In this document: one piece after another, positions 1,652 through 61,906 of the stretch | How positions within the stretch are numbered: the stretch's first letter is position 1 | Layout: each line of letters starts with the position of its first letter | Origin: Prevotella sp. | GTDB lineage: Bacteria > Bacteroidota > Bacteroidia > Bacteroidales > Bacteroidaceae | Assembly: GCA_017645645.1 (NCBI GenBank) | Contig: JAGCOB010000023.1 | Location: 34,354-98,353, forward strand | Length of the DNA stretch: 64,000 bases | Reading direction: 5' to 3' | Notes under the pieces: model-generated | What the model was told of the DNA's origin: nothing | The model's database searches: none | The model's input: only the letters and a program-made list of their open reading frames with translations | Position numbers and translations under genes: made by a program

Positions 1652-1683
1652 AATTGAGAATTGAAAATTGAAAATTAAGAATT
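1652..1683. repeat. 7-bp tandem repeat tract (AATTGAG/AATTGAA type)
   Basis: Four and a half units read AATTGAG, AATTGAA, AATTGAA, AATTAAG, AATT. The tract is intergenic, directly upstream of the -7 element of the DUF2723 gene. It belongs to the same repeat type as 32682-32713 and 44849-44881. Confidence 0.85.
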
Positions 1684-1708
1684 AGTGACTCCTTGTTATT
1701 TTTTAACG

Positions 1709-2161
1709 TTAGAAGAATAAACAGGCACCATATACAAGGACCACATAACGCAGGAATTTACCGATAGTGATGCTGATGACTGAAATAGGGATATTGGCGC
1801 GCATCAATCCTAAAACGATGGTGATGGCACTTCCGAGGATAGGTACGAAGGCGAAAAATCCCATCCAGGCTCCTCTGCCGCCCATAAATCGTGTCGCTTT
1901 GTCAAGACTCTCTTGACTGACATGCAGGTATTTCTCTATCCATTCCAACTTACCCATGCGTCCGACAGTATAGTTGAACATACCGCCTGCCACATTACCA
2001 ATAGTACCATAGATAATCAATAACCAGGGATCCAGTCCTGCTGCCAATAGTCCCATCATCACTGCCTCACTGGAGAAAGGAAAAAATGAACCCGCCACGA
2101 AAGCCGTGATGAGCATGCCCCAATAGCCGTAACTGATCAGAAGAGAGATGATGACATCCAT
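1709..2161 (-). CDS. YqaA family (DedA/VTT-like) membrane protein
   Basis: 150 residues with four hydrophobic segments. The sequence has the GSFFPFSSEAVMMGLL and GNVAGGMFNYTVGRMG blocks and a GFFAFVPILGSAITIVLGLMR stretch, typical of YqaA-type members of the VTT (SNARE-associated/DedA) superfamily. These inner-membrane proteins are linked to lipid flipping and membrane homeostasis, but the exact substrate here is unknown. It overlaps the 3' end of the upstream membrane gene by 25 bp, so both are probably in one transcript starting at purD. Confidence 0.8.
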   Translation of the reverse strand: MDVIISLLISYGYWGMLITAFVAGSFFPFSSEAVMMGLLAAGLDPWLLIIYGTIGNVAGGMFNYTVGRMGKLEWIEKYLHVSQESLDKATRFMGGRGAWMGFFAFVPILGSAITIVLGLMRANIPISVISITIGKFLRYVVLVYGACLFF

Positions 2162-3081
2162 AGGTTATAGGCTGTGAGAGTAAATACTATGATGGTAATA
2201 AGATAGAAGATGATATTGGTCATCCGTTTCTGGGTAAGGGCAAGGAAATGGGCTACCAATGGGGCGGTGTTGATAATCATCAGATATATCAGCATATTGG
2301 CATGCTGAGGTTGTAGACAGAAATACAGGAAAGACAATAAGTCCATCCAAATGAAAAAACCATAAAGTTGACGGATACGGAACTTGTCTAGATAACTGGT
2401 ATGCCAGAAATTAATAGTTCCGATAATAGCGATGATAGTAATGAATGATATAGTCGCAATCTGTCCGGTATTGACGAGGGAAAAGTCAAATGGGCGGTGG
2501 ATGTCAGTTAACTGATTGAAATGCTCAAATAATGGTGTGAGATCTGTTTTGTAGATCAACCAGGAAACAATAAACCAATAGGGAGTGACTGTTCCCATCA
2601 GTGAAGCCAGGAAAGTACGCCAGGAAAGTGTCTGCAGTTTGATTAACATCAACAACCAAAGGACAGGGAGATAGCAGAGAATATGTACATAACAGAGACT
2701 TGCCAATCCGATGCAAAGAAAACTATAATATGTAAGTCCTGTGGATGTTTTGTCCTGATAAGTAAAGAACAGAACCAGGTAGGAAGCAATAATGAAAACC
2801 TGACAGAGGGATTCTGAAAGGAAAGGAAACAGGAAACAGGCTGCACAGGAAAGAACCAAGAAGGAGCTTGACACCATCCTTGAATAAATACGGATAAGTG
2901 CATTGGTGTTGTTTAATAACAGCATCAGGAAGGCGGAGAGGAAAAAGCTCCCAAACTGTATCCACCAACCTTTCTGAATCAGTCCACAAAGCACCCAAAT
3001 ACCTATCGCATATAGCGAGATAATAGGTAGTGTCAGTTTACTTTCCGAAACCTTGTTTTGTAATCGCTTTTTCCTCACCAC
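2137..3081 (-). CDS. Polytopic inner-membrane protein of unknown function
   Basis: 314 residues, almost entirely hydrophobic, with roughly nine to ten predicted membrane spans and a basic N-terminus (RKKR). I do not recognise the family with confidence; Bacteroidales genomes often carry such a protein beside purD. The start is a GTG at 3081 directly after the purD stop codon (3082-3084), with GGAGCAG inside the end of purD as a possible ribosome site. No glycosyltransferase or transporter motif is apparent. The spacing implies co-transcription and translational coupling with purD. Confidence 0.7.
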   Translation of the reverse strand: MVRKKRLQNKVSESKLTLPIISLYAIGIWVLCGLIQKGWWIQFGSFFLSAFLMLLLNNTNALIRIYSRMVSSSFLVLSCAACFLFPFLSESLCQVFIIASYLVLFFTYQDKTSTGLTYYSFLCIGLASLCYVHILCYLPVLWLLMLIKLQTLSWRTFLASLMGTVTPYWFIVSWLIYKTDLTPLFEHFNQLTDIHRPFDFSLVNTGQIATISFITIIAIIGTINFWHTSYLDKFRIRQLYGFFIWMDLLSFLYFCLQPQHANMLIYLMIINTAPLVAHFLALTQKRMTNIIFYLITIIVFTLTAYNLWMSSSLF

Positions 3082-4350
3082 TTATAAGTCTGCTCCGATG
3101 TCACGACGGAAATACTTATCCGTGAATTGTATTTTTTGAGCCTCCTCAAAAGATTTCTGCAGGGCTTCCGCCTTGTCTTTGCCATAAGATGAAACGGCGA
3201 TGACACGACCACCATTGGTGACGACCTGTCCGTCTTTTATTGCTGTACCGCTATGGAAGACAATAGAACCTTCTACTTGGTCAATGCCGCTGATAGGATA
3301 GCCTTTCTTGTATTCCTGCGGATAACCACCACTGACTAGCATCACACAAACAGCGGCACGCTCGTCGAACTCAATGGTGTGCTGATCGAGATTACCAGCA
3401 GCCACACCTTCGAAGAGGTCTACGATGTCACTCTTTAAACGGAGCATGACACTCTCTGTCTCTGGATCCCCCATACGACAGTTGTATTCTATCACCATCG
3501 GATCACCTTTCACGTTGATGAGTCCGAAGAAGATAAAGCCTTTATAGTCGATACCCTCGGCTTTCAGTCCTTCAACTGTTGGACGGATGATGCGGTTTTC
3601 TACCTTCTGCATCCATTCTTTGGTAGCAAAAGGAACTGGGGTTACACTTCCCATGCCGCCAGTGTTCAGACCAGTGTCGTGCTCACCGATGCGTTTATAG
3701 TCTTTTGCCTCAGGTAGAATCTTATAATGGTCGCCATCAGTCAATACGAAAACACTGCACTCGATACCGCTTAGAAATTCCTCGATGACCACTTGTGATG
3801 AGGCATTGCCGAACATACCGCCCAGCATCTCCTTCAATTCCTTCTTTGCTTCATCGAGGGTAGGGAGAATCAGCACACCTTTGCCAGCACAGAGACCGTC
3901 AGCCTTGAGGACGTAGGGTGGTTCTAGTGTTTCCAGGAAAGCCAGTCCCTCTTGAACGTGTTCTCCGTCGAATGTTTGATAGCGTGCTGTGGGGATATGG
4001 TGACGTGCCATGAAAGCCTTGGCGAAATCCTTAGAGCCTTCCAGGACAGCACCTTGTTTGGATGGACCAATCACTGGAATATTCTTCGTGCGCTCATCGG
4101 TTTTCAGGTTGTCGTAAATACCTTTTACCAACGGGTCTTCAGGTCCCACTACTACCATGTCAATCTGTTTGTCTATACAGAAAGCCTTGATGGTGTCGAA
4201 GTCATCCGCCTTCATCGATACATTCTCTCCGCAGTTGGAGGTACCTGCATTACCTGGTGCGATGTACAATTTGTCACATTTCTCACTTTGAGCGATTTTC
4301 CAGGCGAGTGCATGCTCACGTCCGCCACTTCCTAATAATAAAATCTTCAT
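3082..4350 (-). CDS. purD: Phosphoribosylamine--glycine ligase (GAR synthetase)
   Basis: 422 residues, the usual length of PurD. It joins 5-phosphoribosylamine, glycine and ATP into glycinamide ribonucleotide in purine synthesis. The N-terminal [17 protein letters not shown], the ATP-grasp segment with GKGVLIL near residue 155, and the metal/phosphate loop around YNCRMGDPE (about residue 290) are all present. The start at 4350 is supported by the invariant N-terminal motif. A weak -7 element (TACCTTCG, minus strand, 4385-4378) lies 28 bp upstream. First gene of a three-gene minus-strand run. Confidence 0.97.
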
Positions 4351-4412
4351 GATTCTGTTCTTTTTGTAATTTGGTTGCGAAGGTACGAATAAAAAATGAA
4401 TTGAGAGACATT

Positions 4413-4446
4413 TTTGCTGAAATCTAAGAATAATTTCGTAATTTTG
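4413..4446 (+). promoter_or_regulatory. Promoter of the cyclophilin gene
   Basis: TTTG at 4413-4416 and TAATTTTG at 4439-4446, spacer 22 bp, within a TTCGTAATTTTGCA context shared with other promoters of this window. The ATG follows 29 bp later. Confidence 0.55.
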
Positions 4447-6437: not shown

Positions 6438-8606
6438 CTATTTAAGGTAGTCTTCAAAATATTGGGTAATACGCTCATGCAGATGAACACTGGCATGTCC
6501 ACGCATGTTGTGGGGCTCGCCAGGATAGACAAAGAAGTCGGGTTGTGTACCAGCCTCAATACATGCTTTAAGGAACGACAGGCAATGTTGTGGAATGACA
6601 GTGTCATCGTTATAACCTGTGATAATCTGAAGTTTTCCTTTCAGATTCTTTGCCTTGGCAACGAGGGAGGTCTTCTCATAGCCCTCAGGGTTGGTTTGTG
6701 GCGTGTCCATATAACGCTCGCCATACATTACCTCATACCATTTCCAGTCGATGACTGGACCTCCTGCTACACCCACTTTGAAGACATCAGGATAGTTGGT
6801 CATCAGTGAGATAGTCATGAATCCTCCGAATGACCAGCCATGAACACCCAAGCGATCCATGTCGATATAGGGTAGGGAGCGCAGATAGTCAACGCCCTTC
6901 ATCTGGTCTTGCATCTCTATTTGTCCGAGTTGGCGGAAGGTTACTTGTTCGAAGTCGCGTCCACGATTCTCGCTGCCTCTGTTGTCAAGGATGAAAACGA
7001 TATAGCCTTTTTGTGCCATATAGGTCTCCCATGAACGGCTGTACCAATGCCATGCAGCCTCTACATTATGGGCATGAGGACCACCATAGACATATATCAC
7101 GGTGGGATATTTCTTCGTCACATCAAAATCGTGCGGCTTTACCATGCGATAATAGAGGTCTGTTTTTCCGTCTGCCGCTTTGATGGTACCACATTCAAAG
7201 ACAGGTTGCTGATAGCCTCTCCAGGGATCCTCTGCTGTCAACAGGCGTTGTGCCTTCGCAGTCTTTACCTCTACGAGGTCGATGTTACGTGGCACATCAG
7301 GCTCAGAATACTTATCGTAGAAATATAATCCGCTTTCCGATAAGACGGCATGATGTGAGCCTTTGCCGTTGTCCAGAAGCGTTCGCTTGCCTGTCTTTAT
7401 GTCAACAGCATACGTGTTGTGTTGAATAGGATTCGCCTCATTTGAGGAAATAATGATACACTTATCCTTCTTGTTGAAGCCTAAGACCTCCTGAACGACA
7501 AATGCTCCACTGGTAAGTTGTTTGACGACTTCACCTTTTATATTATAAAGATAAAGGTGATTATAGCCGTCACGCTGGCTCTGAAGGATAAACAGATTGT
7601 CATCCCATGGAAGGAATTGGATGGGATGCAATGGTTCTACGTATTTCTCGCTGGTCTCCTGATAAAGTTCTGCTTTCTTTTCCCCTGTTATGGCATCATA
7701 ACTGACAAGGCGACAGTCATTCTGGTCACGATTAAGTTCAAGCATATAGATGGTTTTGGAGTCAGGACTCCAGGCGATATTCGTGAAATAGACAGGGGTG
7801 TCCTGATTATTCTGGATAGTCGGAGTATTCAGGTAAATGATCTTGTTGGTAGTGATGTCATAGACACCAACTGTCACTTGGTGAGAGGTCTCACCAGCCG
7901 TGGGGTATTTGTCTGGCTCATAGGAAGCAATGCGTCTGTCGATATCCACCTGCGGATAATCTGCCACCATGCTCTGATCCATGCGATAGAAAGCAAGACG
8001 TTGGCCATCAGGACTCCAGAATGTGCCTTTTTCAATACCGAACTCATTACGATGAACAGTTTGTCCGTAGACTATCTCTCGACTGCCGTCAGTGGAAAGT
8101 TGATGCTTCTTACCCTGACCGTCGACCACGAATAACTGTTGGTCATCTACAAAGGCTGTTGCGCGTGATATGGGATTCCAATCGTTAGCCTCTTGACCAG
8201 AGATGCTGTCTTGCCAGATAATCTTCTTATCTTTGAAATCTACAAGGATGACAGCTTTCCTGTTGCCGACCTGTACGATGGGCTTGTCTGGATAGGGAAA
8301 GGTAGCATTCATCAAATGACGCACGTATTTCTGGTCGTCACTTTTTGCCCATTCGTTGATTTGTTCAAGCGTAAAGAGTGTCGTTTTCTTACCTGTTTTG
8401 GCAGCAATAACAGAACACTCCTCCACGTCTGTCTCTATTAACTGGTCGCCCCACCATGTCAACCATAAGTTCTGAGGTTGCAGATTACGGTAGTTCGTGC
8501 CTCCGTAATTCAGGTCTTCCAGCGTAAAGAGTTTGTCTTGGGCTTTCATGGGAAGGGATAGAACAAGAAGGGAAAGTAGGGTGAAAAAAAGCTTACTCCT
8601 CATCAT
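6438..8606 (-). CDS. S9 family dipeptidyl peptidase IV-like serine peptidase
   Basis: About 722 residues from the MMRSKLFF start, which begins a signal peptide (LSLLVLSLPMKAQ). The open frame continues upstream to 8735, but that part is low-complexity and antisense-free overlap with the preceding gene, so I reject it. The N-terminal two thirds form a DPP IV-type beta-propeller (YFTNIAWSPDSKTIY repeats). The C-terminal alpha/beta hydrolase has the nucleophile elbow GWSFGG, the aspartate in YNDDTV and the histidine in GEPHNMRG. It releases dipeptides from peptides in the periplasm. It overlaps the upstream methyltransferase gene by 14 bp. Confidence 0.93.
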   Translation of the reverse strand: MMRSKLFFTLLSLLVLSLPMKAQDKLFTLEDLNYGGTNYRNLQPQNLWLTWWGDQLIETDVEECSVIAAKTGKKTTLFTLEQINEWAKSDDQKYVRHLMNATFPYPDKPIVQVGNRKAVILVDFKDKKIIWQDSISGQEANDWNPISRATAFVDDQQLFVVDGQGKKHQLSTDGSREIVYGQTVHRNEFGIEKGTFWSPDGQRLAFYRMDQSMVADYPQVDIDRRIASYEPDKYPTAGETSHQVTVGVYDITTNKIIYLNTPTIQNNQDTPVYFTNIAWSPDSKTIYMLELNRDQNDCRLVSYDAITGEKKAELYQETSEKYVEPLHPIQFLPWDDNLFILQSQRDGYNHLYLYNIKGEVVKQLTSGAFVVQEVLGFNKKDKCIIISSNEANPIQHNTYAVDIKTGKRTLLDNGKGSHHAVLSESGLYFYDKYSEPDVPRNIDLVEVKTAKAQRLLTAEDPWRGYQQPVFECGTIKAADGKTDLYYRMVKPHDFDVTKKYPTVIYVYGGPHAHNVEAAWHWYSRSWETYMAQKGYIVFILDNRGSENRGRDFEQVTFRQLGQIEMQDQMKGVDYLRSLPYIDMDRLGVHGWSFGGFMTISLMTNYPDVFKVGVAGGPVIDWKWYEVMYGERYMDTPQTNPEGYEKTSLVAKAKNLKGKLQIITGYNDDTVIPQHCLSFLKACIEAGTQPDFFVYPGEPHNMRGHASVHLHERITQYFEDYLK

Positions 8607-23079: not shown

Positions 23080-25160
23080 ATGATCACAAAAATAACATTT
23101 ACAAAACATTTCATATTACTATTGTTCAGCCTCGCGGTTTCGGCGGTGGCTGTAGCCCAGTCTTCAGAAAAGAGGGCAAGTTCGCTTTCAAGGCTTCTTC
23201 ATAAGCATGTCTATCAAGGTGAATACGAAAGGCCTGCTGTCAAGGTTGAGGCTCCCAAAGATGCCAGGCGGCCAAGAATGCCCTTGGCGCCAGCTTCAAT
23301 GAGCGCGTGTGGTTTCCTGGCGAATGGGAAGAGGTAAAGGCGGTGGTTATTACTGCGCGTTACGAGTACCTTGTTCCTGGTCATGAGGACGATGGCAGAT
23401 ACTATGCCAACCAGATTGTCAAGAACTGGGGTAATCAGTATTTCCAGGAAGATGCATATTCCCCAGCTAAGTTTCTAGGAGAGGGCCCCTGTAAGTCGAG
23501 AGTGGATGTCGTGACCCTGGATGCTCAGCCCTTCCTATATGTTATGGATGGCATTCAGAAAGCAGGAGCAGAGGCCTGGGTGCGCATAGAGGAAGCCGGC
23601 GACGAGCAGATTATACGCACTGCCATGCAGAACGCTGGTCTCCAGACCGACAAGATGCGGTTCTTCGTAGCTCCGGGCAATGCCTTCTGGTATCGCGACT
23701 GCGGACCTATCTGCTTCTATTATGGTGACGACGACAAGATTGGCATGCTCGACTTCTTCTATGGTTATACACGTCCCTGCGACGACCTGCTGCCCTCCGT
23801 GCTCCGTTGGAAGTTTGGTATGCGCAACTTTTTCAGCGACCTCATCTGGGAAGGCGGCAACTGCCTGGTCGATGGCATTGGCGGTCTCGTCACCAGCACC
23901 GCTACCTACAGGCAGAACACGGATACCATAGGGCGCTTGCACTGGGACGGCATCAACCCCGCTACCATCAAGTATGACGAGAGGCAGCCACTCTACCCCG
24001 TGGATGTGAAGTTCACCCTCGCAAACCTGCTCGGTCAGCGTCAGACCACTATCGTGCCCACACTCAACTACGATGGCGGCACAGGCCATATCGACCTCTA
24101 TCTCGATGCCACCGACGAGAACGCCTTCTACATGGCACAGATGCCCGAAAACTATGACTGGTGGAGCGATTACGACATCAGTGTCGGCAACACCGCCATT
24201 CTCTTCAACAAGAAGAGCTTCTTCGGCCGTCAATACTACAACAATGCCTCGCTGCCTTTCCCTTCCAAGAACGACGGCTCAGGGTGGGAGAGCGAAGAAG
24301 AATACGGCAAGGTAGCCCGTACCTATGCCAACCACCTCATCTGCAATGGCTACATCCTTCAGCCATGCTTCTCGCCTGTGGGCGAAGACGGAATGCCTAC
24401 GGCAGAGTGGGACCGTAAGAACATCGAGAAGATGAAATCCTACTACCCGGGCTACACCTTCTATTGCATCGACATGCGCACCTTCGACGGCTCAGGCGGC
24501 TCCATCCACTGCATCACCAAGCAGATACCCGCCGACAATCCTGTGCGCATCATCCATAAGGACATCTTTGGCAAGGTCAACCCCGTCATACCGAAATCCA
24601 CCGATCCGTCGTACATACCCTTCAGCACCATCATCACCAATAAGAGTGGCATCAAGGAAGCCTCGCTCTGTTACACCACCGATGGCAATCAATGGCACGA
24701 AGTAAAGCTCGCGGCCAATGGCAACTGCTGGCATGCCGATGTACCCCTGAGCGCCTTCACCGGTGGTCAGCCCATCCCGGCCGAGGGCATCCAGGTGTCT
24801 TATTATCTCACAGCCACCTCCAACAATGGCAAGACCGTCACCAAGCCTATCAATGCACAGAAGGGAAGCCTCTACGACTTCACCATCACCTGCGCTGTCG
24901 AATACGACAAGAATATGTTCGACTACGCCACCGAGCCTGCACCAGTTGATCAGATCAAGTTTATTATGGCCAAAGACCTGATACGTGAAGACACCAGCGT
25001 CGAACCCACAGGCATTATTGAAGTGAAGAGTGAATGGTCAATGGTCAATGGTCAATGGTCAATGAATAAATGGTACACCATCAACGGCATGCCACTTGCC
25101 CAGAAGCCCACGGCTAAGGGAATCTACATCTACAACGGCAACAAGGTCGTGATTAAGTGA
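23080..25160 (+). pseudogene. Agmatine/peptidylarginine deiminase-like secreted protein, frameshifted
   Basis: A signal peptide ORF (23080-23337, MITKITFTKHFILLL to AVAQ) runs out of frame, while the main ORF from about 23280 reads ALGASFNERVWFPGEWEEVKAV and continues to 25160. The two join if one base is added near 23268-23271. The main part matches the PAD_porph/agmatine deiminase family: RDCGPICFYYG, WEGGNCLVDG, and a GGSIHCITKQIP end of the catalytic core with the active cysteine in HCIT. A C-terminal WYTINGMPLAQKP...IYNGNKVVIK tail resembles secretion/sorting tails of Prevotella secreted proteins. A 7-bp repeat tract (25033-25064) precedes this tail. Either a true pseudogene or a sequence error. 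Confidence 0.75.
25033..25064. repeat. 7-bp tandem repeat tract (AATGGTC type), in coding sequence
   Basis: Four and a half perfect AATGGTC units inside the deiminase-like frame, read as EWSMVNGQWSMN between the catalytic region and the C-terminal tail. Confidence 0.92.
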
Positions 25161-27115: not shown

Positions 27116-28255
27116 CTATTTCACGCCCACAATCTTGGTCTTGGGCAGTTCACGGTTGCGTTTGTTGACCACCGTGACGACGGACTGAGCGAGGTTGATG
27201 AAGGCGATGCCCGTTGCCGTGTCGCTGTTGAGGGCGGCAGGTGTGCCTTGGTCACCGCTGTCGCAGATGCCCTGTACAAGGGGTATCTGGGCGAGTAGGG
27301 GGACGTTCATCTCCTCAGCGAGTTGTTTACAACCCTCCTTGCCGAAGATATAGTAACGGTTCTCAGGCAGTTCGGCAGGCGTGAACCACGCCATGTTCTC
27401 CACGAGTCCGAGGATGGGGACGTTGACCTTCTCGTTGCGGTACATGTCAATACCCTTACGAGCATCGGCAAGTGCCACCTGCTGAGGGGTGGAGACGATG
27501 ATGGCACCAGTGATGGCAAGGGTCTGCAAGAGCGTCAGATGGATGTCGGAAGTGCCAGGCGGTGTGTCGAGGATCAGGTAGTCGAGTTCCCCCCAGTCGG
27601 CATCGGCAATGAGTTGTTTCAGTGCATTCGATGCCATACCGCCGCGCCAGAGCGTTGCCGTCTCAGGACTGACGAAGAAACCGATGGAGAGCAGTTTGAC
27701 CCCATATGCCTCGATGGGTTCGATGAGGTCGCGTCCGTCGACATTGACGGCATAGGGACGTGCATCCTCTGCCTTGAACATCTTCGGCATCGAAGGTCCG
27801 AAGATATCGGCATCCAACAAGCCCACCTTATAGCCTAAGCGAGCCAGTGCGATGGCGAGGTTGGCAGACACGGTACTCTTACCCACGCCGCCCTTGCCGC
27901 TGCTGACGGCAACGACATTCTTCACCTGCGGCAACATCTTGCCGACCTCAGGGCGAGGCTTCGACTTGAACTCTGTCTGGATGGTGACCTCAATTGGCTC
28001 TTGGCTGTTAGCATTTTGCTTTTGGCAATGATACTTGATGGCAGCCTCGGCAGCCTTGACGGTCGACTTCAGAAAAGGGTCGGTGTCGCGTGGAAACTCC
28101 AGCACGACACTCACCTTCCAGGGTTCTCCTTCTTTCTGAGGGGCAGCGACGACCGGCTGGTCAGCCAGCATGCCGCTCTCTATGATATTCTTCTTCGTGC
28201 CTGCATACGTCACTGTCTGCAAGGCATCAACAATCATCTGGGGATATAATGTCAT
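27116..28255 (-). CDS. mrp: Mrp/NBP35 family P-loop ATPase (iron-sulfur carrier)
   Basis: 379 residues. An N-terminal DUF59/MIP18-like domain (about 1-90) leads to the deviant Walker A motif SSGKGGVGKSTVSANLA and to LLDADIFGPSMPK, then LILDTPPGTSD. Members carry and transfer Fe-S clusters. The usual CxxC before the IFG motif is absent: this copy reads NMAWFTPAELPENRYYIFG, as I recall for other Bacteroidota forms. The linker between domains contains QKQNANSQEPI encoded by a 7-bp repeat tract (27993-28027). Confidence 0.93.
   Translation of the reverse strand: MTLYPQMIVDALQTVTYAGTKKNIIESGMLADQPVVAAPQKEGEPWKVSVVLEFPRDTDPFLKSTVKAAEAAIKYHCQKQNANSQEPIEVTIQTEFKSKPRPEVGKMLPQVKNVVAVSSGKGGVGKSTVSANLAIALARLGYKVGLLDADIFGPSMPKMFKAEDARPYAVNVDGRDLIEPIEAYGVKLLSIGFFVSPETATLWRGGMASNALKQLIADADWGELDYLILDTPPGTSDIHLTLLQTLAITGAIIVSTPQQVALADARKGIDMYRNEKVNVPILGLVENMAWFTPAELPENRYYIFGKEGCKQLAEEMNVPLLAQIPLVQGICDSGDQGTPAALNSDTATGIAFINLAQSVVTVVNKRNRELPKTKIVGVK
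27993..28027. repeat. 7-bp tandem repeat tract (TTGGCT type) in mrp
   Basis: Five units: ATTGGCT, CTTGGCT, GTTAGCA, TTTTGCT, TTTGGCA. Translated on the minus strand as QNANSQEPI in the linker between the DUF59-like and ATPase domains. Confidence 0.8.
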
Positions 28256-29722: not shown

Positions 29723-31756
29723 TTAGTGATTATTAGTAGATGTTTTACTTTGGTTCAATCCATTGTCCAACCACTGGAGATACTCCTGGATATCCTCATT
29801 ATAGGAACGGGAGGGCCCCAGCGGTTTGCCCTGTGCATCGAGCAGGACATAGAAGGGTTGGGTATTGGCTCCGAACTTAGTGGCTTGCAGATGACTCCAC
29901 TTGTCGCCAATGGTACGCAGCGTACGCTTCTGTCCGTTCACCTCCACCTCCATAGGCTGGGGGAGGGGAGTCTTGTCGTCGACATACAGGGAGATGAGCA
30001 CATAGTCCTGGGTGAGTCGGCGAGCCACCTCCTCATCGGTCCATACGGCAGCCTCCATCTTACGGCAGTTCACACAACCAAAGCCGGTGAAGTCGATGAT
30101 GACAGGCTTCTGCTGTTCACGGGCAAACGCCATACCTTGTTCGTAGTCCTTGAAAGGTGCCTCTACCACGGTAGTCTGAACAATCTTATAGTCCTGCGTA
30201 TACATCGGTGGTGTGAAGGCACTGATAGCCTTCAACGGTGCTCCCCATAGTCCAGGTATCATATAGATGGTAAAGGCAAAGGAGAGGAGTCCGAGGAAGA
30301 ACGGAATGATGGCTATTGGCTTTTGGCCGTTAGCTGTTGGTTCATCATGGGGGAAACGGAGCCATCCCATGAGGTAGGCACCCAGCAGTCCGAAGAGGGC
30401 TATCCATATCGACAGGAACACCTCTCTGTCTAACAACCGCCAACCATAGGCAAGGTCTGCCACACTCAGGAACTTCAGGGCGAAGGCGAGTTCGATGAAT
30501 CCCAACACCACCTTCACGGTATTCATCCATCCGCCTGACTTCGGCACTGACTTCAACAGCGACGGGAAGAGGGCAAAGAAGGCGAAGGGGATGGCTAGTC
30601 CGATGGAGAAGCCTAACATACCGAGGGTCGGTCCGAGGATATTTCCTTGGGTGGATACCGCCACCAACAGGAAACCGATGATGGGTCCCGTGCAGGAGAA
30701 CGATACCAGTACGAGGGTGAAGGCCATCAGGAAGATGGAAAGTAATCCTGTCGTCCGATCACTCTTCTGGTCTATCTTATTCGACCATGAGGAGGGTAGT
30801 GTCAGTTCGAAGGCTCCGAAGAAGGAGGCGGCGAAGACGATGAGCAACAGGGCGAAGAAGATGTTAAACCAGGCATTGGTGCTGAGGGCATTCAGTGCAT
30901 TGGCTCCAAAGAGTGCCGTCACCAATAGTCCCAACGCCACGTAGATAATGATGATGCTCAGTCCATAGGTCATCGCCTCACGGATGGCTTTTGAGCGTTC
31001 CTTGTTGCGCTTCAGGAAGAACGACACCGTCATGGGGATGATAGGCCACACGCAGGGAGTCAACAGAGCAAGGAAACCGCCTAACAGTCCTGCGAGAAAA
31101 ATATACCAAAGAGAATGGTCCGTAGGTGTATCGCTATAGCCTTGCAGTTCCTTAGTGACAGGTTGCCAGAGGTCAGTTGAAAGGTCAGAGCCCCCTAAGT
31201 TAGGGGGTTGGGGGTCTGAACAAATCTCTGTTGTAATAGTGTCTTTTTGATTCTTTGTTTTTGAATCCTCGTTCAGACCCCTGTCGTCCCCTAACTTAGG
31301 GGACAAAGTGACCATCCCTTCCTTCTTAAACTCCACCGTCGATGGCGGCATACACATCTCATCATTGCAGGCACCATATTCCAGGTAGCAGTCGATGGTG
31401 TATTTCTCCTTGGTGAACTTGATTTTCTGTACGAAGGTGGCGTTGTGCTCGAAGTAACGTACCTCCATGTCGAAGAGCTTGTCGAACATCTTCTGTTCAT
31501 TGCCCCGTGGTTTCAGTTTCCCTACCTTTTCTGCTCCCTCCATCTTGACGGCGTTGAAACTGGCGGCAATAGGACCATCCTTCAGGTTCGTCGAATAGAC
31601 ATGCCAGCCTGCGTCAATCTTTCCTGTGAAGACAATCTCCCCCTCACCGTTGGGGAGTTCTTTCAGTTGTGATGTGAAATGGACGGGGTCAACCATCTGT
31701 GCACTCATCGTCAGCACAGACAGCCATAACATGAATAAGGTGTATAATCTTCTCAT
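29723..31756 (-). CDS. dsbD: Thiol:disulfide interchange protein DsbD
   Basis: 677 residues from MRRLYTLFMLW, a signal peptide. The N-terminal DsbD-alpha domain has the GACNDEMCMPP cysteine pair, eight membrane spans follow (beta domain, FSCTGPIIG), and the C-terminal thioredoxin domain has FGCVNCRKMEA. It moves electrons from cytoplasm to periplasmic thiols. Two short-repeat insertions are visible: a palindromic element (31191-31302) in the linker before the first membrane span, and a 7-bp tract (30309-30342) in a loop, read EPTANGQKPI. The -7 element is only 7 nt before the ATG. Confidence 0.94.
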   Translation of the reverse strand: MRRLYTLFMLWLSVLTMSAQMVDPVHFTSQLKELPNGEGEIVFTGKIDAGWHVYSTNLKDGPIAASFNAVKMEGAEKVGKLKPRGNEQKMFDKLFDMEVRYFEHNATFVQKIKFTKEKYTIDCYLEYGACNDEMCMPPSTVEFKKEGMVTLSPKLGDDRGLNEDSKTKNQKDTITTEICSDPQPPNLGGSDLSTDLWQPVTKELQGYSDTPTDHSLWYIFLAGLLGGFLALLTPCVWPIIPMTVSFFLKRNKERSKAIREAMTYGLSIIIIYVALGLLVTALFGANALNALSTNAWFNIFFALLLIVFAASFFGAFELTLPSSWSNKIDQKSDRTTGLLSIFLMAFTLVLVSFSCTGPIIGFLLVAVSTQGNILGPTLGMLGFSIGLAIPFAFFALFPSLLKSVPKSGGWMNTVKVVLGFIELAFALKFLSVADLAYGWRLLDREVFLSIWIALFGLLGAYLMGWLRFPHDEPTANGQKPIAIIPFFLGLLSFAFTIYMIPGLWGAPLKAISAFTPPMYTQDYKIVQTTVVEAPFKDYEQGMAFAREQQKPVIIDFTGFGCVNCRKMEAAVWTDEEVARRLTQDYVLISLYVDDKTPLPQPMEVEVNGQKRTLRTIGDKWSHLQATKFGANTQPFYVLLDAQGKPLGPSRSYNEDIQEYLQWLDNGLNQSKTSTNNH
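30309..30342. repeat. 7-bp tandem repeat tract (TTGGCT type) in dsbD
   Basis: Units ATTGGCT, TTTGGCC, GTTAGCT, GTTGGTT after a partial ATGGCT. Read on the minus strand as EPTANGQKPI in a loop between membrane helices. Confidence 0.75.
31191..31302. repeat. Imperfect inverted-repeat element inserted in dsbD
   Basis: Arms 31191-31221 and 31271-31302 are inverted copies of about 31 bp around a 49-bp centre. Each arm itself begins with the palindrome CCCCTAAGTTAGGGG and ends with GGGGTCTGAAC. The element stays in frame and adds about 37 residues (SPKLGDDRGLNE ... SDPQPPNLGGSD) between the periplasmic alpha domain and the first membrane span. Confidence 0.82.
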
Positions 31757-31783: not shown

Positions 31784-32506
31784 CTATTTGCCAAGAAATT
31801 TCGTATCAAGATAACGTTGGAACGCTTCTTTATAGTTGTCACCGATAGGCAGGTAGGTGTCAGCATCCATGATAATGCGGTTTTTATTGACCTCCTGAAT
31901 CTTTGTCAGATTGACGATATACGAGCGATGGATACGCATGAAAAACTCTGGTAGCTTTTCTTCCATCTTCTTCATCGAAAGAAGGGTGATGATGGGTTTT
32001 GGTTCTCCCTCTATGTAAATCTTCAGATACTCGCTCATGCCCTCGATATAACGGATGTCGGCAATGGTGACCTTGACGATGCGGTATTCGGTCTTGACGA
32101 AGATGGTATCGTCTTGGCTATTAGCAATTGGCTGTTGGCTATTAGCAGATGGCTCTATACGTTCCTTTATCCTGTTTGCCGCCCTTTGGAAGTCCTGCAG
32201 ACCGAAAGGCTTCAGGAGGTAGTCGACGGCATTAACCTTAAAGCCCTCGACGGCATACTCGCTATAGGCGGTGGTGAAGACGACCAGGGGCGGAGCCTGC
32301 AGCGACTTGACGAACTCCATACCGTTGAGGTCGGGCATGTTGATGTCGCAGAAGATGGCATCTACCGTTTCCTGTTCCAGAAACTTCCTCGCCTCCAGGG
32401 CACTCTGACACTGGGCAGCCAGTTCGAGGAAGGGAATCTTACCGATATAGGTCACCAGTTGCTGTAACGCCAGCGGTTCGTCGTCAATAGCCAGACATCT
32501 GATCAT
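31784..32506 (-). CDS. LytTR family response regulator
   Basis: 240 residues. Receiver domain 1-120 with CLAIDDEPLA, the phosphoacceptor aspartate in IFCDINMPDLNGM (about 55) and the lysine in LLKPFGLQDF. The LytTR DNA-binding domain (about 140-240) has the FMRIHRSYIVNL and LPIGDNYKEAF motifs. Between them, a 42-bp 7-bp-repeat tract encodes exactly 14 residues (EPSANSQQPIANSQ). Its ATG overlaps the kinase stop as ATGA on the kinase side, so the pair is translationally coupled. Confidence 0.95.
   Translation of the reverse strand: MIRCLAIDDEPLALQQLVTYIGKIPFLELAAQCQSALEARKFLEQETVDAIFCDINMPDLNGMEFVKSLQAPPLVVFTTAYSEYAVEGFKVNAVDYLLKPFGLQDFQRAANRIKERIEPSANSQQPIANSQDDTIFVKTEYRIVKVTIADIRYIEGMSEYLKIYIEGEPKPIITLLSMKKMEEKLPEFFMRIHRSYIVNLTKIQEVNKNRIIMDADTYLPIGDNYKEAFQRYLDTKFLGK
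32113..32154. repeat. 7-bp tandem repeat tract (TTGGCT type) in the LytTR regulator
   Basis: Six complete units: CTTGGCT, ATTAGCA, ATTGGCT, GTTGGCT, ATTAGCA, GATGGCT. 42 bp is a multiple of both 7 and 3, so the frame is kept. It encodes the interdomain linker. Confidence 0.92.
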
Positions 32507-33669
32507 GTGAGTGGTATTTGAAGTTCAACATTATAGGTCTCAGAATCGTCCTGTATATTCAGTGTATAGTTTTCTCCATAGAGTAAGTTTAACCGTTGTT
32601 TAACATTGGCAAGTCCCACGCCGCCTTGCTGGCTGTTGGCTGTTGGCTGTTGGCAGTTGGCTTTCGAGTTACGACAAGTAAAATTGAGAATTGAAAATTG
32701 AGAATTGAAAATTATGTCTGCCTTCACATGGATGAACGAGTCATGTTGGTAACTGATGCCGTGTTTGAAGGCATTCTCGATAAACGTGATGAGCATGAGG
32801 GGCGGCACTTGGTAGTCGGGGACCTCCGTGTGGAGGTCGACCTGTACGTCCACCTTGTCCGTATAACGCAGTCGCATCAGGGTGACGTAATGGCGGATGA
32901 AGTCGAACTCCCGACTCAGGGGTACTCCCTTCTTGTCACCCTCATAAAGTACGAAACGCATCATCTTCGACAGTTCCAGGATGGTGTCCTTTGCCTTCTC
33001 AGGGTCGATGTCCACCAACGCATGGATATTGTTGAGCGTGTTCATGAAGAAATGCGGATTGATCTGGTACCGCAGGTATTCCAGTTGCTGTTCCAGGTTC
33101 TCCTTCTCCAGAGCCATGAGTTGCTTGGCATCATGGCGCGACTTGAAATAGAGCTTGATGCCGATATTCATGCCCAGCATCAGGATGAGGATGATGAGGG
33201 CGATGACATCATGCTGTCCCACCACCATAGGAGGCCTGTGCCGTCCGTGGTCCTTGAAGTCGCGGGGACGGGGAGGACGCTGATGGTGTGGCTCCATCTG
33301 TTCTCGGTGCGACGGCTCCATCTGTTCCATAGGTGGCGGCTCGTGGTTGAACGCCCTGCGTTCCGTGGGACGGTTCGTGCATTGGTAGACGATGAATCCT
33401 CCAATCATCACGGCAACGATGCCGAAGTACAGGGCACGGCGTTGCTTATATACCAACAGGGGGGCGAGGAGGAAGTTATGGATGAGGAAGATGACAAGGA
33501 AGATGCCGAACTGTTTCCAGATCATGAACACCTCTCTCCACTCGAAGTCTATGACGGGGTTGCTGACAGAACGCATGTAGAGACTGAGCACTGGCACTGC
33601 GAAGAGCATGCCCCACAGTGCCAGATAAGTCAGATTCTCATGTTTCTTCTGTTCTTTCATCCATTTCAT
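32503..33669 (-). CDS. LytS-type sensor histidine kinase with His/Pro-rich extracytoplasmic loop
   Basis: 388 residues: four membrane helices, then a His_kinase domain with YQINPHFFMNTLNNIHALVD (phosphoacceptor histidine) and a HATPase domain (FIENAFKHGISY, GGVGLANVKQRL). Between helices 3 and 4 lies a segment of about 50 residues rich in His, Pro, Met and Arg (MEQMEPSHREQMEPHHQ, DHGRHRPPM), placed outside by positive-inside rules. Two 7-bp repeat tracts insert about 28 residues between the N-box and the G-box. Pairs with the LytTR regulator through a 4-bp gene overlap. Confidence 0.93.
   Translation of the reverse strand: MKWMKEQKKHENLTYLALWGMLFAVPVLSLYMRSVSNPVIDFEWREVFMIWKQFGIFLVIFLIHNFLLAPLLVYKQRRALYFGIVAVMIGGFIVYQCTNRPTERRAFNHEPPPMEQMEPSHREQMEPHHQRPPRPRDFKDHGRHRPPMVVGQHDVIALIILILMLGMNIGIKLYFKSRHDAKQLMALEKENLEQQLEYLRYQINPHFFMNTLNNIHALVDIDPEKAKDTILELSKMMRFVLYEGDKKGVPLSREFDFIRHYVTLMRLRYTDKVDVQVDLHTEVPDYQVPPLMLITFIENAFKHGISYQHDSFIHVKADIIFNSQFSILNFTCRNSKANCQQPTANSQQGGVGLANVKQRLNLLYGENYTLNIQDDSETYNVELQIPLT
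32628..32662. repeat. 7-bp tandem repeat tract (TTGGCT type) in the LytS kinase
   Basis: Five units: GCTGGCT, GTTGGCT, GTTGGCT, GTTGGCA, GTTGGCT. Read as KANCQQPTANSQQ immediately before the G-box. Confidence 0.92.
32682..32713. repeat. 7-bp tandem repeat tract (AATTGAG type) in the LytS kinase
   Basis: Four and a half units AATTGAG, AATTGAA alternating. Read as FNSQFSILNF. Only 19 bp from the other tract, so two sub-types sit side by side in one ATP-lid loop. Confidence 0.92.
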
Positions 33670-35664: not shown

Positions 35665-35691
35665 ATTGGCTATTAGCTAACGGCTATCTTA
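35665..35691. repeat. 7-bp tandem repeat tract (TTGGCT type) at a gene end
   Basis: ATTGGCT, ATTAGCT, AACGGCT and a decayed ATCTTAC. It touches the stop codon of the LEA-like lipoprotein gene (35689) and lies between it and the terminator. Confidence 0.7.
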
Positions 35692-43776: not shown

Positions 43777-45888
<2,112 letters not shown>

Positions 45889-45914
45889 ACTAACGATACT
45901 TCATTTTAATCTTG

Positions 45915-45946: not shown

Positions 45947-45967
45947 TTTTATTTGAGTTTTCTCGAA

Positions 45968-45992: not shown

Positions 45993-45997
45993 AAAGC

Positions 45998-50291: not shown

Positions 50292-50326
50292 AATTCTCAA
50301 CTTTCAACTATCAACTATCAATTCTT
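50292..50326. repeat. 7-bp tandem repeat tract between two genes (AACTATC type)
   Basis: AATTCTC, AACTTTC, AACTATC, AACTATC, AATTCTT. It forms the gap between the DUF4199 and glycosyltransferase genes and supplies the TGA stop of DUF4199. Confidence 0.88.
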
Positions 50327-50848
50327 CGCCCTTTGCATCACTGCAGCGATAGGAACACCAAGGAAGAAGCCCGTGATGATGTTGATGGTCAGCATGTTCA
50401 GGGCAAAGTCTATCGGGCGCATTTCCGAGAGGAACTTGATGTTCTCGTCTAACTGTCCCTCAATACCGTATGCCTTGATGGCTTCTCTGCCTTCTGGCGA
50501 ACTGAATGTCTCCATGATCTTACTGAGGAAGAAACCCTTGTCGAGGAAGGCAAAATAGACATAGACGGCAATGGCGAACAAGACACCGGCATAGAAGAAA
50601 ATCAGTATCGTATAAGCATAACTGCGTGAGAAAGAGATGACTCCCTCCCGTCCGTAATCACGGAAATGACGCAGACGACTTGCCGCAAAGAAAGGGGATG
50701 CAACAATGAGTATCAGTGCCACAATACCTAATATAGGATAGGTTAGTCCCAAGATATAACATAAGAGGCTTCCTGTCCATAGTAAAGCAAGCAAAGCACC
50801 ATCCTGTCGCGCAAACGCTTTCAGTTGTATGTATTCCTGTGGTGTCAT
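50318..50848 (-). CDS. DUF4199 membrane protein
   Basis: 176 residues with four membrane spans (LLALLWTGSLLCYILGL, IVALILIVASPFF, ILIFFYAGVLFAIAVYVYF, LTINIITGFFLGV). The SFSRSYAYTILIFFYAG region is the DUF4199 signature. Function unknown. Likely first gene of the glycosyltransferase operon; its -7 element is 8 nt before the ATG. Confidence 0.85.
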   Translation of the reverse strand: MTPQEYIQLKAFARQDGALLALLWTGSLLCYILGLTYPILGIVALILIVASPFFAASRLRHFRDYGREGVISFSRSYAYTILIFFYAGVLFAIAVYVYFAFLDKGFFLSKIMETFSSPEGREAIKAYGIEGQLDENIKFLSEMRPIDFALNMLTINIITGFFLGVPIAAVMQRAKN

Positions 50849-58463: not shown

Positions 58464-58659
58464 ATATACCATATTCTTCTTCATTGTTCTTTGTTTCGTA
58501 ACTGCTTTCATTCTCCTGTGCCGTATCTTTGATGGCGTCTTCGTAGCCTGTCAATGCGGCGAAAGGCGCAAACTGGGCTGCACGGTTCCACATCGACATC
58601 TGAGGATGACGCTTCGATACGTGGTGCGGCATATTAATAATATCGTCGTAATTATCCAT
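58456..58659 (-). CDS. YolD-like protein
   Basis: 67 residues. DIINMPHHVSKRHPQMSMWNRAAQFAPFAALTGYEDAI fits the YolD-type small protein found next to UmuC-like polymerases in Firmicutes and Bacteroidota. Function is not settled, perhaps polymerase control. The ATG at 58659 is itself formed by a 7-bp repeat tract. Confidence 0.8.
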   Translation of the reverse strand: MDNYDDIINMPHHVSKRHPQMSMWNRAAQFAPFAALTGYEDAIKDTAQENESSYETKNNEEEYGIYE

Positions 58660-58685
58660 TATCAATTTTCAATTATCAATTTGTT
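58651..58685. repeat. 7-bp tandem repeat tract across the YolD-like start
   Basis: ATTATCC, ATTATCA, ATTTTCA, ATTATCA, ATTTGTT. It runs from the polymerase stop to the first codons of the YolD-like gene. Confidence 0.82.
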
Positions 58686-60198
58686 ACGCCTTGTGTCCTC
58701 CTATCTGTTTATTACGTTCCTTGGCGGTGGCACCCTCCTCGAAGTTCAGTCCTCTGAGAATGGCATTCTTGCCGAAACGCTGTTTGATTTTCAATTGTGC
58801 TTCCTGCATCCGACGCTCCTTGTCGATTTTTGCCTTTTCCTCCTGCTTCTGCTTTTCCAACGCCTCGTAGTCAGTAAAGAGGTCAAGCTGTTGGGGCGCA
58901 TTGTCCTTGGCAGCGACAGATGCCTCCGTTACCACATGATTCGTGGTCAGGTTCAACCTGCGAATCAGCAAGTCTGGTTTAACACAACGGTCGAAGAGTG
59001 CCGCCGCACCATCTATGATTTGCCTCGATAACGATGTGGGCTTCTCGAAGTTGAAAGTGCCATGGGCGTGTTTCGGCACAGCCTTGCCGTAGTAGTTGTT
59101 GGTAATCTCACCATGATACTTCTCGTGGATCTCAGGGCGGATAAGATTCTCTGCATCATAGCCGACCGTCAATACCAATTGGTCTGTCACCAGTCGCTTC
59201 GATACCAAATTGAGTGCCATTCCTTCTGCCATTTCCTGTATCACCACACGGGCCTTTTTGAAATCGTAAGGCTCCTGCAACACCTGTCCGCTGCTGAAGG
59301 AGTTCGTTTCCGGTCTGTAAGCTTTTACAGCTTCCATTGTACATGGCTCCCAGCCCCATGCATGGTCTATCAGCAGTTCAGCATTCACACCGAAAAGTCG
59401 ATAGAGTGTTTCCTCGTTCTGTACGGACATTCGAGCCAACTTACCCATTGTATCTACACCATATAGTGCCAGTTTCTCCGCAATACCGCGTCCTACTCTC
59501 CAGAACTTCGTTATCGGGCGATAGTCCCAGAGTTCACGTCGATATGACATTTCATCGAGTTCGGCGATTCGTACACCGTCTTTGTCGGCAGGCATCTTTT
59601 TGGCCACAATATCCATCGCTACCTTACAGAGATACATGTTTGTGCCGATGCCAGCCGTTGCAGTAATACCCGTCTGACCTAGCACGTCGCGAATTATCTT
59701 CATCGCAAGTTGATGGGCAGTCAGTTTATAACTGCCGAGATAAGCCGTCACGTCCATGATCACCTCGTCGATGGAATACACATGGATGTCCTCTGGCGCG
59801 ATATACTTCAGATAAGTCTTATAGATCTTCGAACTGACCTCAATATAGTGTGCCATCTGAGGCGGTGCGGCGATATAGTCAACAGCCCAATCCGGATGCT
59901 GTTTCAACTCTATGTCCGATGCGGATTTGCCTGTCAGACGATGGCCTGGCACCTTGCTCTGACGTTCGAAGTTCACCTCTCTCATCCGTTGCACCACTTC
60001 AAAGAGTCGCGCCCTTCCACCGATGCCGTATGCTTTCAGCGAGGGAGATACAGCCAGACAAATCGTTTTCTCCGTGCGGCTCACATCTGCCACCACAAGG
60101 TTGGTGGTCAGCGGGTCAAGTCCTCTGTCCACACACTCCACCGAAGCATAAAACGACTTCAGGTCAATGGCAATATATGTCCGCTGCTGCTCTGGCAT
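58684..60198 (-). CDS. Y-family DNA polymerase (UmuC/DinB-like)
   Basis: 504 residues. AIDLKSFYASVECVDRGLDP (metal aspartate, steric gate region), YSIDEVIMDVT (catalytic DE), TAGIGTNMYLCKVAMDIVAKK, then little-finger domain and a C-terminal Glu/Lys-rich tail. A clamp-binding motif QQLDLF is present near residue 425. Lesion-bypass polymerase, first gene of the cassette with YolD-like and the small gene. Confidence 0.92.
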   Translation of the reverse strand: MPEQQRTYIAIDLKSFYASVECVDRGLDPLTTNLVVADVSRTEKTICLAVSPSLKAYGIGGRARLFEVVQRMREVNFERQSKVPGHRLTGKSASDIELKQHPDWAVDYIAAPPQMAHYIEVSSKIYKTYLKYIAPEDIHVYSIDEVIMDVTAYLGSYKLTAHQLAMKIIRDVLGQTGITATAGIGTNMYLCKVAMDIVAKKMPADKDGVRIAELDEMSYRRELWDYRPITKFWRVGRGIAEKLALYGVDTMGKLARMSVQNEETLYRLFGVNAELLIDHAWGWEPCTMEAVKAYRPETNSFSSGQVLQEPYDFKKARVVIQEMAEGMALNLVSKRLVTDQLVLTVGYDAENLIRPEIHEKYHGEITNNYYGKAVPKHAHGTFNFEKPTSLSRQIIDGAAALFDRCVKPDLLIRRLNLTTNHVVTEASVAAKDNAPQQLDLFTDYEALEKQKQEEKAKIDKERRMQEAQLKIKQRFGKNAILRGLNFEEGATAKERNKQIGGHKA

Positions 60199-61301: not shown

Positions 61302-61501
61302 CAATGAAGAAACGGAAAATCAAGTATTCGGCAATATTCTTCCTCTGTTGGTTTGCCCTTTTGGTCTTGCTGGTGGATGGACTCCTGAAATTCCAGACAT
61401 TGGTTGACTATTTCGGGTCGTACGCAGTCGTAGAGATTACTTTGCTGCTATTGGTTCTTTTACCAACACTGGTAGTTTATAGATTTACAAAAGAAAAATA
61501 G
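61298..61501 (+). CDS. Small two-helix membrane protein
   Basis: 67 residues, two hydrophobic helices (YSAIFFLCWFALLVLLVDGLL; VVEITLLLLVLLPTLVVY), Lys-rich ends. Unknown. Overlaps the lipoprotein stop by 4 bp. Confidence 0.6.
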   Translation: MTMKKRKIKYSAIFFLCWFALLVLLVDGLLKFQTLVDYFGSYAVVEITLLLLVLLPTLVVYRFTKEK

Positions 61502-61566
61502 TGATGGAAAAAGTTCTGGTATATTATCTGATGGTTATATAAAGTGATTCCACTTCAAAAAATCAA

Positions 61567-61598
61567 GACCCCGACTTGCATTTCTGCAGGTCGGGGTC
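61567..61598. terminator. GC-rich hairpin after the small membrane gene
   Basis: GACCCCGACtTGCA pairs with TGCAgGTCGGGGTC around TTTC. No U-tract on plus, A-rich (T on minus) side at 61557-61566. Confidence 0.6.
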
Positions 61599-61627
61599 TC
61601 ATGGATTATATATGGAATGGCAAACAG

Positions 61628-61891
61628 TTATGCCATGAAGTGCCTGATATGACGGACTGATGTTACTTTGGCATCGTAGATCACTGTCAACTCACGAGTG
61701 CGGGGATTCCACTTGGTGTCCATCACGCCCTTCATGTGCTCTACTTTAGCCACAATCCTCTTGTGAGAGTCGTGATGGCTCACCCTGAAGGTGCAGGTCT
61801 TCACATCAGGACGATAGGCGTGGGACTTGTGGGCATCGAAGTGAGAAGTCCGCTTGTCAGCCTTGCCAAACGGCAAACAGCTAACGGCCAA
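61628..61891 (-). CDS. HMA-like domain protein lacking the metal cysteines, N-terminally altered
   Basis: 87 codons from a TTG at 61891. The C-terminal 55 residues (VKTCTFRVSHHDSHKRIVAKV, then MKGVMDTKWNPRTRELTVIYDAKVTSV) have the beta-alpha-beta pattern of heavy-metal-associated domains, but the CxxC loop is SHHDSHKR with histidines. The first codons (LAVSCLPFGKA) are read from a 7-bp repeat tract and a stop codon stands right upstream, so the original start/signal peptide is probably lost. May be a pseudogene. Confidence 0.5.
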   Translation of the reverse strand: MAVSCLPFGKADKRTSHFDAHKSHAYRPDVKTCTFRVSHHDSHKRIVAKVEHMKGVMDTKWNPRTRELTVIYDAKVTSVRHIRHFMA

Positions 61892-61906
61892 TAGCTAAAA
61901 GCCACA
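61865..61906. repeat. 7-bp tandem repeat tract at the 5' end of the HMA-like gene
   Basis: GCCAAAC, GGCAAAC, AGCTAAC, GGCCAAT, AGCTAAA, AGCCACA: the complement of the TTGGCT type, six units. Confidence 0.8.

Follow-up and report, generated by a model that had tools for sequence, protein, structure and literature searches.

Tandem repeats of seven-nucleotide units have been on record in bacteria for decades, with no consensus on how they arise or what they do. Those of cyanobacteria, the short tandemly repeated repetitive sequences (STRRs), were reportedly described by Mazel in 1990. Repeat DNA of another kind is found in Rickettsia, whose palindromic elements are of larger size. TAACTGA direct repeats occur in Beggiatoaceae, Cyanobacteria and five Bacteroidetes, and in a Beggiatoaceae genome all but 25 TAACTGA sets are completely intergenic, mostly just upstream of start codons, with related heptamers rarely repeated (PMC4679880); the GGGAATC and GGGGAYT heptamers of Xanthomonas and Nostoc have a preferred unit number of four, linked by the authors to G-quadruplexes, and are intergenic in 89% and 93% of cases in two Xanthomonas (PMC4692102); and parS of pSM19035 is made of contiguous 7-bp repeats, at least four of which are required for function (PMC9499535). 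We found no description of heptamer arrays in Prevotella in searches limited to open-licence papers. Here we analyse such arrays, starting from a stretch of 64,000 bp of a Prevotella genome (hereafter, the window; assembly GCA_017645645.1, contig JAGCOB010000023.1, positions 34,354 to 98,353). With confidence that goes no further than an even balance, we favour their interpretation as lineage-specific heptamer families, of the kind of STRRs or long simple sequence repeats (SSRs), with fast turnover in Prevotella, written by re-annealing during repair and filtered by selection. A preliminary description of the window, which knew of no such repeat in Bacteroidota, has to be corrected on that point, as PMC4679880 already places TAACTGA arrays in five Bacteroidetes.

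The genome holding the window (G000) is a Prevotella-type metagenome-assembled genome (MAG) from rumen, with an assembly of 2.09 Mb and 64% complete. Its sister species G236 has 90–91% nucleotide identity with it and is syntenic across most of 27117–46125. The closest loci to the mrp-like gene of the window came from rumen Prevotella MAGs, the first named strain being Xylanibacter ruminicola Ga6B6, although records close to G000 were possibly omitted. The preliminary description had reported tracts with a 7-bp period at 13 coordinates. We inspected all of them and found that 12 passed at least one of two tests. A period-7 test (score of at least 12) was passed by seven tracts (1652, 25022, 32630, 32682, 44849, 50297 and 58651), against a mean of 0.0 in 20 Markov shuffles of the window; among the control lags, 4–6 and 10–13 gave no tracts, and 8 and 9 gave two each. 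A unit-based test for TTGGCT-type tracts, which demanded at least three units in register with at most one mismatch per unit and had no shuffled control, was passed by six (27994, 30309, 32114, 32629, 45231 and 61879). The weakest tract listed, at 35665, failed both. The tracts are the following:

1652..1683, plus strand: AATTGAR array, intergenic; 14 bp separate it from the called start of the downstream minus-strand gene, which ends at 1638.
25022..25064, plus strand: AATGGTC array near the 3' end of the plus-strand gene 23307-25160, giving the peptide WSMVNGQ.
27994..28027, plus strand: TTGGCT-type array in the mrp-like gene 27116-28255 (minus strand), in the polar reading.
30309..30342, plus strand: TTGGCT-type array in the dsbD-like gene 29723-31774 (minus strand).
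32114..32154, plus strand: TTGGCT-type array in response-regulator gene 31784-32506 (minus strand), within its linker.
32629..32662, plus strand: TTGGCT-type array in gene 32503-33669 (minus strand), net +12 bp and missing in five aligned relatives.
32680..32713, plus strand: AATTGAR array in the same gene, common to G236 only among five aligned relatives.
35665..35690, plus strand: weak TTGGCT-type tract at and beyond the stop of the lipoprotein gene 35689-36267.
44849..44881, plus strand: AGTTGAG array in the Dcp-like gene 43777-45888 (minus strand).
45216..45250, plus strand: TTGGCT-type array in the same Dcp-like gene.
50292..50321, plus strand: TCAACTA array over the junction between two minus-strand genes, 49320-50300 and 50318-50848.
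58650..58681, plus strand: AATTATC array, intergenic, directly following the stop codon of the DinB/UmuC-like minus-strand gene 58684-60198.
61865..61905, unit on the minus strand: TTGGCT-type tract between two convergent genes.

Such tracts are abundant throughout the genome. With up to two mismatches, the triple TTGGCTN pattern TTGGCTNTTGGCTNTTGGCT had 93 forward and 57 reverse overlapping matches on many contigs of the assembly, and its reversed control had none. A sample of 464 kb, composed of the window, 260 kb of contig C7 and stretches of contigs C26 and C29 (the last two partly chosen around matches), contained 59 period-7 tracts with a score of at least 11; a single Markov shuffle yielded none. 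Of the 59, 31 came from the contiguous stretch of C7. Control lags of 4–6 and 10–13 yielded 0–1 tracts in this sample, lag 8 yielded 13 and lag 9 yielded 14; lags 14, 18, 21 and 22, partly multiples of 7 and 9, yielded 37, 15, 18 and 9, respectively. The same period stands out in the mrp loci of 80 relatives (1.42 Mb; hereafter, the 80 loci), with 6.7 tracts per 100 kb at lag 7 compared with 0.0–0.8 at lags 4–6 and 10–13, 1.6 at lag 8 and 1.3 at lag 9. Tracts are also present in loci of named strains, Segatella copri iA622 (L103) and Xylanibacter ruminicola Ga6B6 (L045) being two examples. Outside the family, stretches of 16 genomes from other families of the order (277 kb) held six period-7 tracts, in three of the genomes, several of these tracts being AT-rich.

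The units themselves vary widely among the 80 loci, and the count of any given unit changes strongly between close species. Allowing one mismatch, the triple TTGGCTN pattern was present in 41 of 120 genomes of the genus, G000 included, with 71 matches in G000, 66 in G095 and 28 in G105, and few or none in most others (the reversed control had seven matches in six of the 120 genomes). In seven close relatives the counts were 27 (G236), 24 (G178), 19 (G165), 9 (G037), 2 (G183) and 0 (both G035 and G250). There are many heptamer units with a loose common grammar, and not a single spreading repeat as the preliminary description supposed. Compared with letter-shuffled units, four sets of consensus units were enriched in TCA, CAA, AAC and CTC and depleted in GTA, and CGA and CCG were rare in most of the four. 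Units free of G on one strand made up 48–73%, compared with 26–28% of background heptamers, though the units of one family are counted many times in these figures. Each tract consists of a conserved core plus one freer position: in the 274 units of the TTGGCTN arrays of G000, the seventh base was G in 109, T in 76, A in 72 and C in 17, the third base was G in 197 or A in 65, and the remaining positions were almost fixed, in part owing to the search procedure.

Comparison with relatives revealed a rapid turnover of these tracts. Within ~10% nucleotide divergence, a good part of them is missing or swapped for another heptamer. In a wider set, 60 of 170 tracts had an orthologous site under a strict flank rule that favours shared sites; 38 of the 60 were shared, six were scored as another array and 16 as empty. 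These counts include some sites twice, once from either side; moreover, no fewer than three of the 16 are decayed shared tracts, and no fewer than three of the six belong to the same family. The same site can carry different heptamers, or none, in sister species. At the Dcp site 44849, for example, CAACTCT is present in G000 and G183, two such units in G035, CAACGCT in G250, a CATCAGM tract of equal length in G236 and an AAAGCCA-like one in G165, with none in G037; at position 217636 of contig C7, the G000–G236 comparison pairs a GTTTATA-type tract with an equally long AATTATC tract. The response-regulator linker is hypervariable throughout the relatives, some of which have other heptamers there.

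Often the tracts are not clean insertions, as they replace resident sequence of different length. The mrp-like tract adds a net 21 bp with respect to all five aligned relatives (G035, G037, G178, G183 and G236, the same five used for the dsbD-like gene); the dsbD-like tract stands for ~21 bp of other sequence and adds a net 12 bp, the same net size as the first tract of gene 32503-33669; and the second Dcp tract (45216..45250) adds a net 24 bp with respect to G236, G035, G037, G178 and G250, with related tracts at this site in G165 and in G183 (AGCCAGG). In 143 kb of aligned G000 and G236 DNA we inspected 30 sites with a tract in either species. Length differences at sites wholly in genes were multiples of 3, so that the frame-shifting changes of unit number known from contingency SSRs were not found there; non-multiples occurred at three sites that are intergenic or at the edge of a gene (items 20, 24 and 30). 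Elsewhere, the C-terminal site L279 differed by 23 bp, which is not a multiple of 3. In nine shared tracts, the free base had changed at 5 of 33 positions; for the six core positions the figure was 22 of 252, and for the adjacent flanking sequence 9 of 109. Shared tracts therefore change at approximately the rate of their flanks, suggesting that the mixed free bases were present from birth and lending no support to a hypermutable free base. The preliminary comparison with the STRRs of cyanobacteria as a spreading micro-repeat is supported, with tracts present or absent in different orthologues and counts far above random.

Other short dispersed repeats (CCCCTAAGTTAGGGG, CCCCAGCCCC-type and CGAGCTTNGCTCG) occupy protein sites where the sister species has a heptamer tract (window 31176-31216; G236 loci L216, L241, L246 and L247). 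Array flanks were 100% identical between G000 and G236, compared with ~90% identity genome-wide, for L239 and L227 (G236) against C26:50144, in the concatenated sample, and L285 (G000), reflecting either recent exchange or mixed bins.

Tract length also shows a preference. In G000 and G236 the commonest length is 30–33 bp, that is, four to five units, with a sharp fall above 33 bp: tracts of 26–29, 30–33 and 34–37 bp numbered 11, 31 and 5 in G000, 19, 36 and 4 in G236, and 24, 31 and 5 in the 80 loci. The peak in the two species is visible both in genes and between them. Four or five units were found in 49 of 61 TTGGCT-type arrays of G000 (from 684 kb, partly retrieved around matches) and in 58 of 71 from loci of seven other species.

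A further class of tracts has a 9-bp period (TCTAGANNN, CTCTGAGAA; window 8676-8739 and 39960-39998; G236 loci such as L231 1206-1238 and L226 11802-11833), with 13 tracts of 30–34 bp in 748 kb of G236. These 13 hint at a fixed total length rather than a fixed number of units, although no peak is seen there at lag 8. Tracts of 8-bp units lie at 37135-37162 and 43328-43386 of the window, the former common to G236 and missing in G037, G165 and G178.

How might these tracts arise? Beyond what the data show directly, namely replacement, turnover, a length preference in two species and biases of strand and phase, we infer a writing step. New tracts would be written during the repair of short gaps or breaks, when a growing end that finishes in the core of a unit might re-anneal to another unit of its own array, or to one at some other place in the genome, and be extended by 7 nt per round. 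Repeated re-annealing could produce a conserved core, a mixed free base and a genome-wide unit with no need for a transposase, and selection on protein and promoter function would keep a small and biased subset, part of it used as linkers and signal peptides. Several observations weigh against this proposal. The lengths of intergenic tracts in the 80 loci are flat from 18 to 33 bp (17, 18, 13 and 17 per 4-bp bin) before dropping to 3 at 34–37 bp, followed by a tail of longer tracts, which is an edge more than a peak, so that the peak is not general. Some length differences are clean 21-bp steps that look like slippage (item 28 of the 30 sites; L283). Sharing of sequence between arrays showed no excess at 20–28 bp over a first-order unit model (11 pairs shared at least 24 bp, compared with a mean of 10.4 in that model and 3.4 in a full unit shuffle); dispersal by copying is therefore not demonstrated. 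Three pairs shared at least 30 bp, compared with a mean of 0.62 in the first-order model, where one of 60 runs reached three; all three fall among three all-TTGGCTG arrays, so that array-to-array copying is at best hinted at. Tract-free sites showed no enrichment in local seeds, with a mean common stretch of 5.75 on the same strand, 3.94 on the opposite strand and 4.22 in the control; leaving out four sites of at least 9 as decayed tracts, the same-strand mean was 4.3, calculated by hand. No repair enzyme was linked to the tracts. The shared flanking target envisaged in the preliminary description did not emerge from the 61 arrays of G000, whose flanks had no consensus (at most 0.32 bits per position).

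Plain replication slippage from a chance local seed is the strongest competitor, although we give it distinctly less credence than repair-time re-annealing. The 7-nt loop would suit the polymerase, a view that is credited to Mrazek in 2007, and shared units would result from composition plus selection. The clean 21-bp steps at existing units fit this explanation, as does the occurrence of weak lag-8 and lag-9 tracts, and the similarity of units within arrays alone accounts for most of the sharing between arrays. However, slippage does not readily explain why G000 has 61 TTGGCT-type arrays in 684 kb when G035 and G250 have no match to the triple pattern, nor the mixed free bases, the replacement of resident DNA, the lack of seed excess at empty sites and a length peak, rather than a decay, in G000 and G236. 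A more radical possibility, which we regard as unlikely, is a non-slippage DNA-writing process in Prevotella that would lay down heptamer tracts of ~32 bp, with a genome-specific core and mixed seventh base, in place of resident sequence, maybe through a repair polymerase or an RNA-templated enzyme, and from which the host would draw linkers and signal peptides. If true, such a process might also underlie the four-unit preference of the Xanthomonas and Nostoc heptamers that was linked to G-quadruplexes. With many tracts young, DNA-replacing and swappable in place across dozens of comparable sites of two sister species, and with a preferred length in units lacking G-tracts, the origin of bacterial heptamers becomes a testable question.

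The use of the tracts in proteins depends on the strand. In the sense AGCCAAN they give polar internal stretches (ANSQQPT), and in the sense TTGGCTN a hydrophobic N-terminal one (LLAVGCW) with a lipobox-like LAVGC. Gene starts came from a simple gene caller and signal peptides were judged by eye. Among the 61 arrays of G000, 42 were internal and one N-terminal in the AGCCAAN sense, eight were N-terminal and two internal in the TTGGCT sense, and eight were intergenic. Seven of the eight N-terminal TTGGCT-sense arrays looked like signal peptides, five of them with a lipobox-like end, and the eighth is probably upstream of the true start; the two internal ones were hydrophobic stretches. The 71 distinct arrays of seven other species were similarly distributed, with 36 internal and two N-terminal in the AGCCAAN sense, 17 N-terminal (all signal-peptide-like) and four internal in the TTGGCT sense, and 12 intergenic. 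Combining the eight species, AGCCAAN accounts for 78 of 84 internal tracts, and 25 of 31 tracts in the TTGGCT sense are at N-termini, although not all cases are independent since several genes are orthologous between species (e.g., a lipoprotein with CARMGQPDGGW). The preliminary claim that coding tracts avoid the hydrophobic LLAVGCW reading thus holds for internal tracts and not for N-termini, where that reading is put to use. Six of seven G000 proteins with an N-terminal TTGGCT-sense tract had Pfam matches of a type expected outside the cytoplasm (Big_5, Mfa2, DUF4369 with thioredoxin-like, M16, Omp85 and LptC, the last slightly below the cut-off) and one had none.

The reading phase is equally biased. 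A T at the free base of sense AGCCAAN gives a TAG in one codon phase, and in G000 this occurred in one of 47 units, compared with 15 of 52 and 16 of 47 in the other phases; the corresponding figures in the other species were 0 of 45, 12 of 49 and 12 of 45. In-frame TAG is avoided, implying that the tracts are translated. As to their position, placement in linkers or loops, proposed in the preliminary description, was supported for the seven coding tracts of the window that were checked against orthologues, the tract at 25033 lying outside that comparison. Both Dcp tracts coincide with gaps in the alignment to the solved dipeptidyl carboxypeptidase 5l43. Gene 23307-25160 has a partial agmatine-deiminase match, and gene 32503-33669, without NCBIfam match, is histidine-kinase-like by its neighbour and a C-terminal motif.

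One DNA repeat here serves two purposes in proteins, as polar linker and as signal peptide, with selection doing the sorting; the dependence on strand is a clear natural example of this. An alternative is that the tracts owe their existence mainly to adaptation, being created repeatedly and independently under selection for linkers, signal peptides and promoter spacers. The biases of strand, place and stop phase, and the recurrence at the same loops and in the same lipoprotein signal peptide in several species, speak for this; yet such biases are equally expected from a filter on random gains, and relatives do the same job at the same site with a different tract or none, and we find this explanation unlikely.

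Tracts are also frequent between genes. Their density there exceeds that in genes by 5.2 times in G000, 7.1 in G236 and 11.1 in the 80 loci, even if by number 48 of 71, 49 of 78 and 44 of 125, respectively, are in genes; 38 of the 59 tracts of the 464-kb sample are wholly in called genes and 15 wholly intergenic. In G236, 14 of 18 fully intergenic tracts adjoin, in promoter orientation, a TAnnTTTG box, which we take to be the -7 element of Bacteroidota promoters, five of them on both sides (200 random placements: mean 3.0, maximum 9). This abutment is not general, as it is weak in G000 (3 of 15; random mean 1.2, maximum 4) and in the 80 loci (3 of 47; random mean 1.35, maximum 6). A simple supply of a -33 element by the arrays does not fit: TTG near -23/-22 accompanied 15% of 34 array-bearing boxes versus 43% of 835 others. 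In G236 loci L217, L227, L236 and L240, back-to-back boxes enclose a heptamer tract of ~32 bp in a gap of ~43–44 bp; a fixed spacing of such boxes (43–44 and 63–64 bp) was discarded, since the pairs are few and also present without arrays.

Another possibility is that the tracts are binding arrays, selected by a protein able to polymerise along adjoining 7-bp repeats in the manner of the ribbon-helix-helix (RHH) ParB/omega on WATCACW heptads. Four to five contiguous units match the geometry required by such a system (PMC9499535), and the G236 boxes agree with it. Nevertheless, the many unrelated units per genome, the location of most tracts in genes, the same-site unit swaps and the weak abutment in G000 and the 80 loci make this idea very doubtful, more so than an adaptive origin. 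A search for the omega family found no member in 20 genomes and none in control genomes either, and is hence uninformative. Finally, chance, codon periodicity or an assembly artefact, which might account for the weakest tract at 35665, can practically be discarded and is already contradicted at the genome level by the shuffle, lag and reversed-pattern controls, by a period that is not a codon multiple and by the tracts of named strains.

Some neighbouring features deserve mention. After the lipoprotein gene 35689-36267, a hairpin followed by a T-run (~35600-35665) is kept in all seven aligned species, and the stretch from the stop codon to the hairpin differs in each of them. Intergenic TTGGCT-type arrays occur as inverted pairs, with possible hairpins, at L138 8999-9048 and L133 4504-4610. 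L121 contains elements of ~50 bp (3450-3503, 7561-7615 and 18960-19030), two of them mutual reverse complements, with many copies 75–92% identical across relatives.

How do the Prevotella tracts compare with known systems? They share with the STRRs of cyanobacteria and with long SSRs their nature of dispersed, partly degenerate tandem heptamers, with several over-represented units per genome, at many loci and far above chance, and with presence and copy number varying between relatives. In contrast with them, the Prevotella tracts are mostly in genes in the sampled genome, have strand-dependent protein uses, undergo unit swaps at the same site between sister species and show the 30–33 bp length peak. 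As in Prevotella, repeat DNA is tolerated in frame in coding genes as extra polar peptide in the case of the Rickettsia palindromic elements; unlike these, the Prevotella tracts are short direct repeats without terminal inverted repeats. More generally, they do not resemble palindromic mobile elements (miniature inverted-repeat transposable elements, repetitive extragenic palindromes or Rickettsia palindromic elements), being direct repeats by inspection, with no inverted-repeat scan run. The parS heptads of pSM19035 are plasmid-borne and consist of a single defined unit that has its cognate protein; the Prevotella tracts are also contiguous 7-bp repeats, the TTGGCT-type ones mostly of four or five units, but with many units per genome and no known cognate protein. 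The GGGAATC/GGGGAYT arrays are likewise degenerate heptamers with a preferred unit number; the main Prevotella units lack as a rule the G-tracts needed for G-quadruplexes, and yet they show length preference and fast turnover. Similar in being scattered heptamer direct repeats present in Bacteroidetes, with a minority in genes, the TAACTGA repeats form a system of a single unit, mostly intergenic in the Beggiatoaceae genome, in contrast to the many units of Prevotella. The Prevotella tracts add to the heptamer arrays known in cyanobacteria, Xanthomonas, Beggiatoaceae and five Bacteroidetes.

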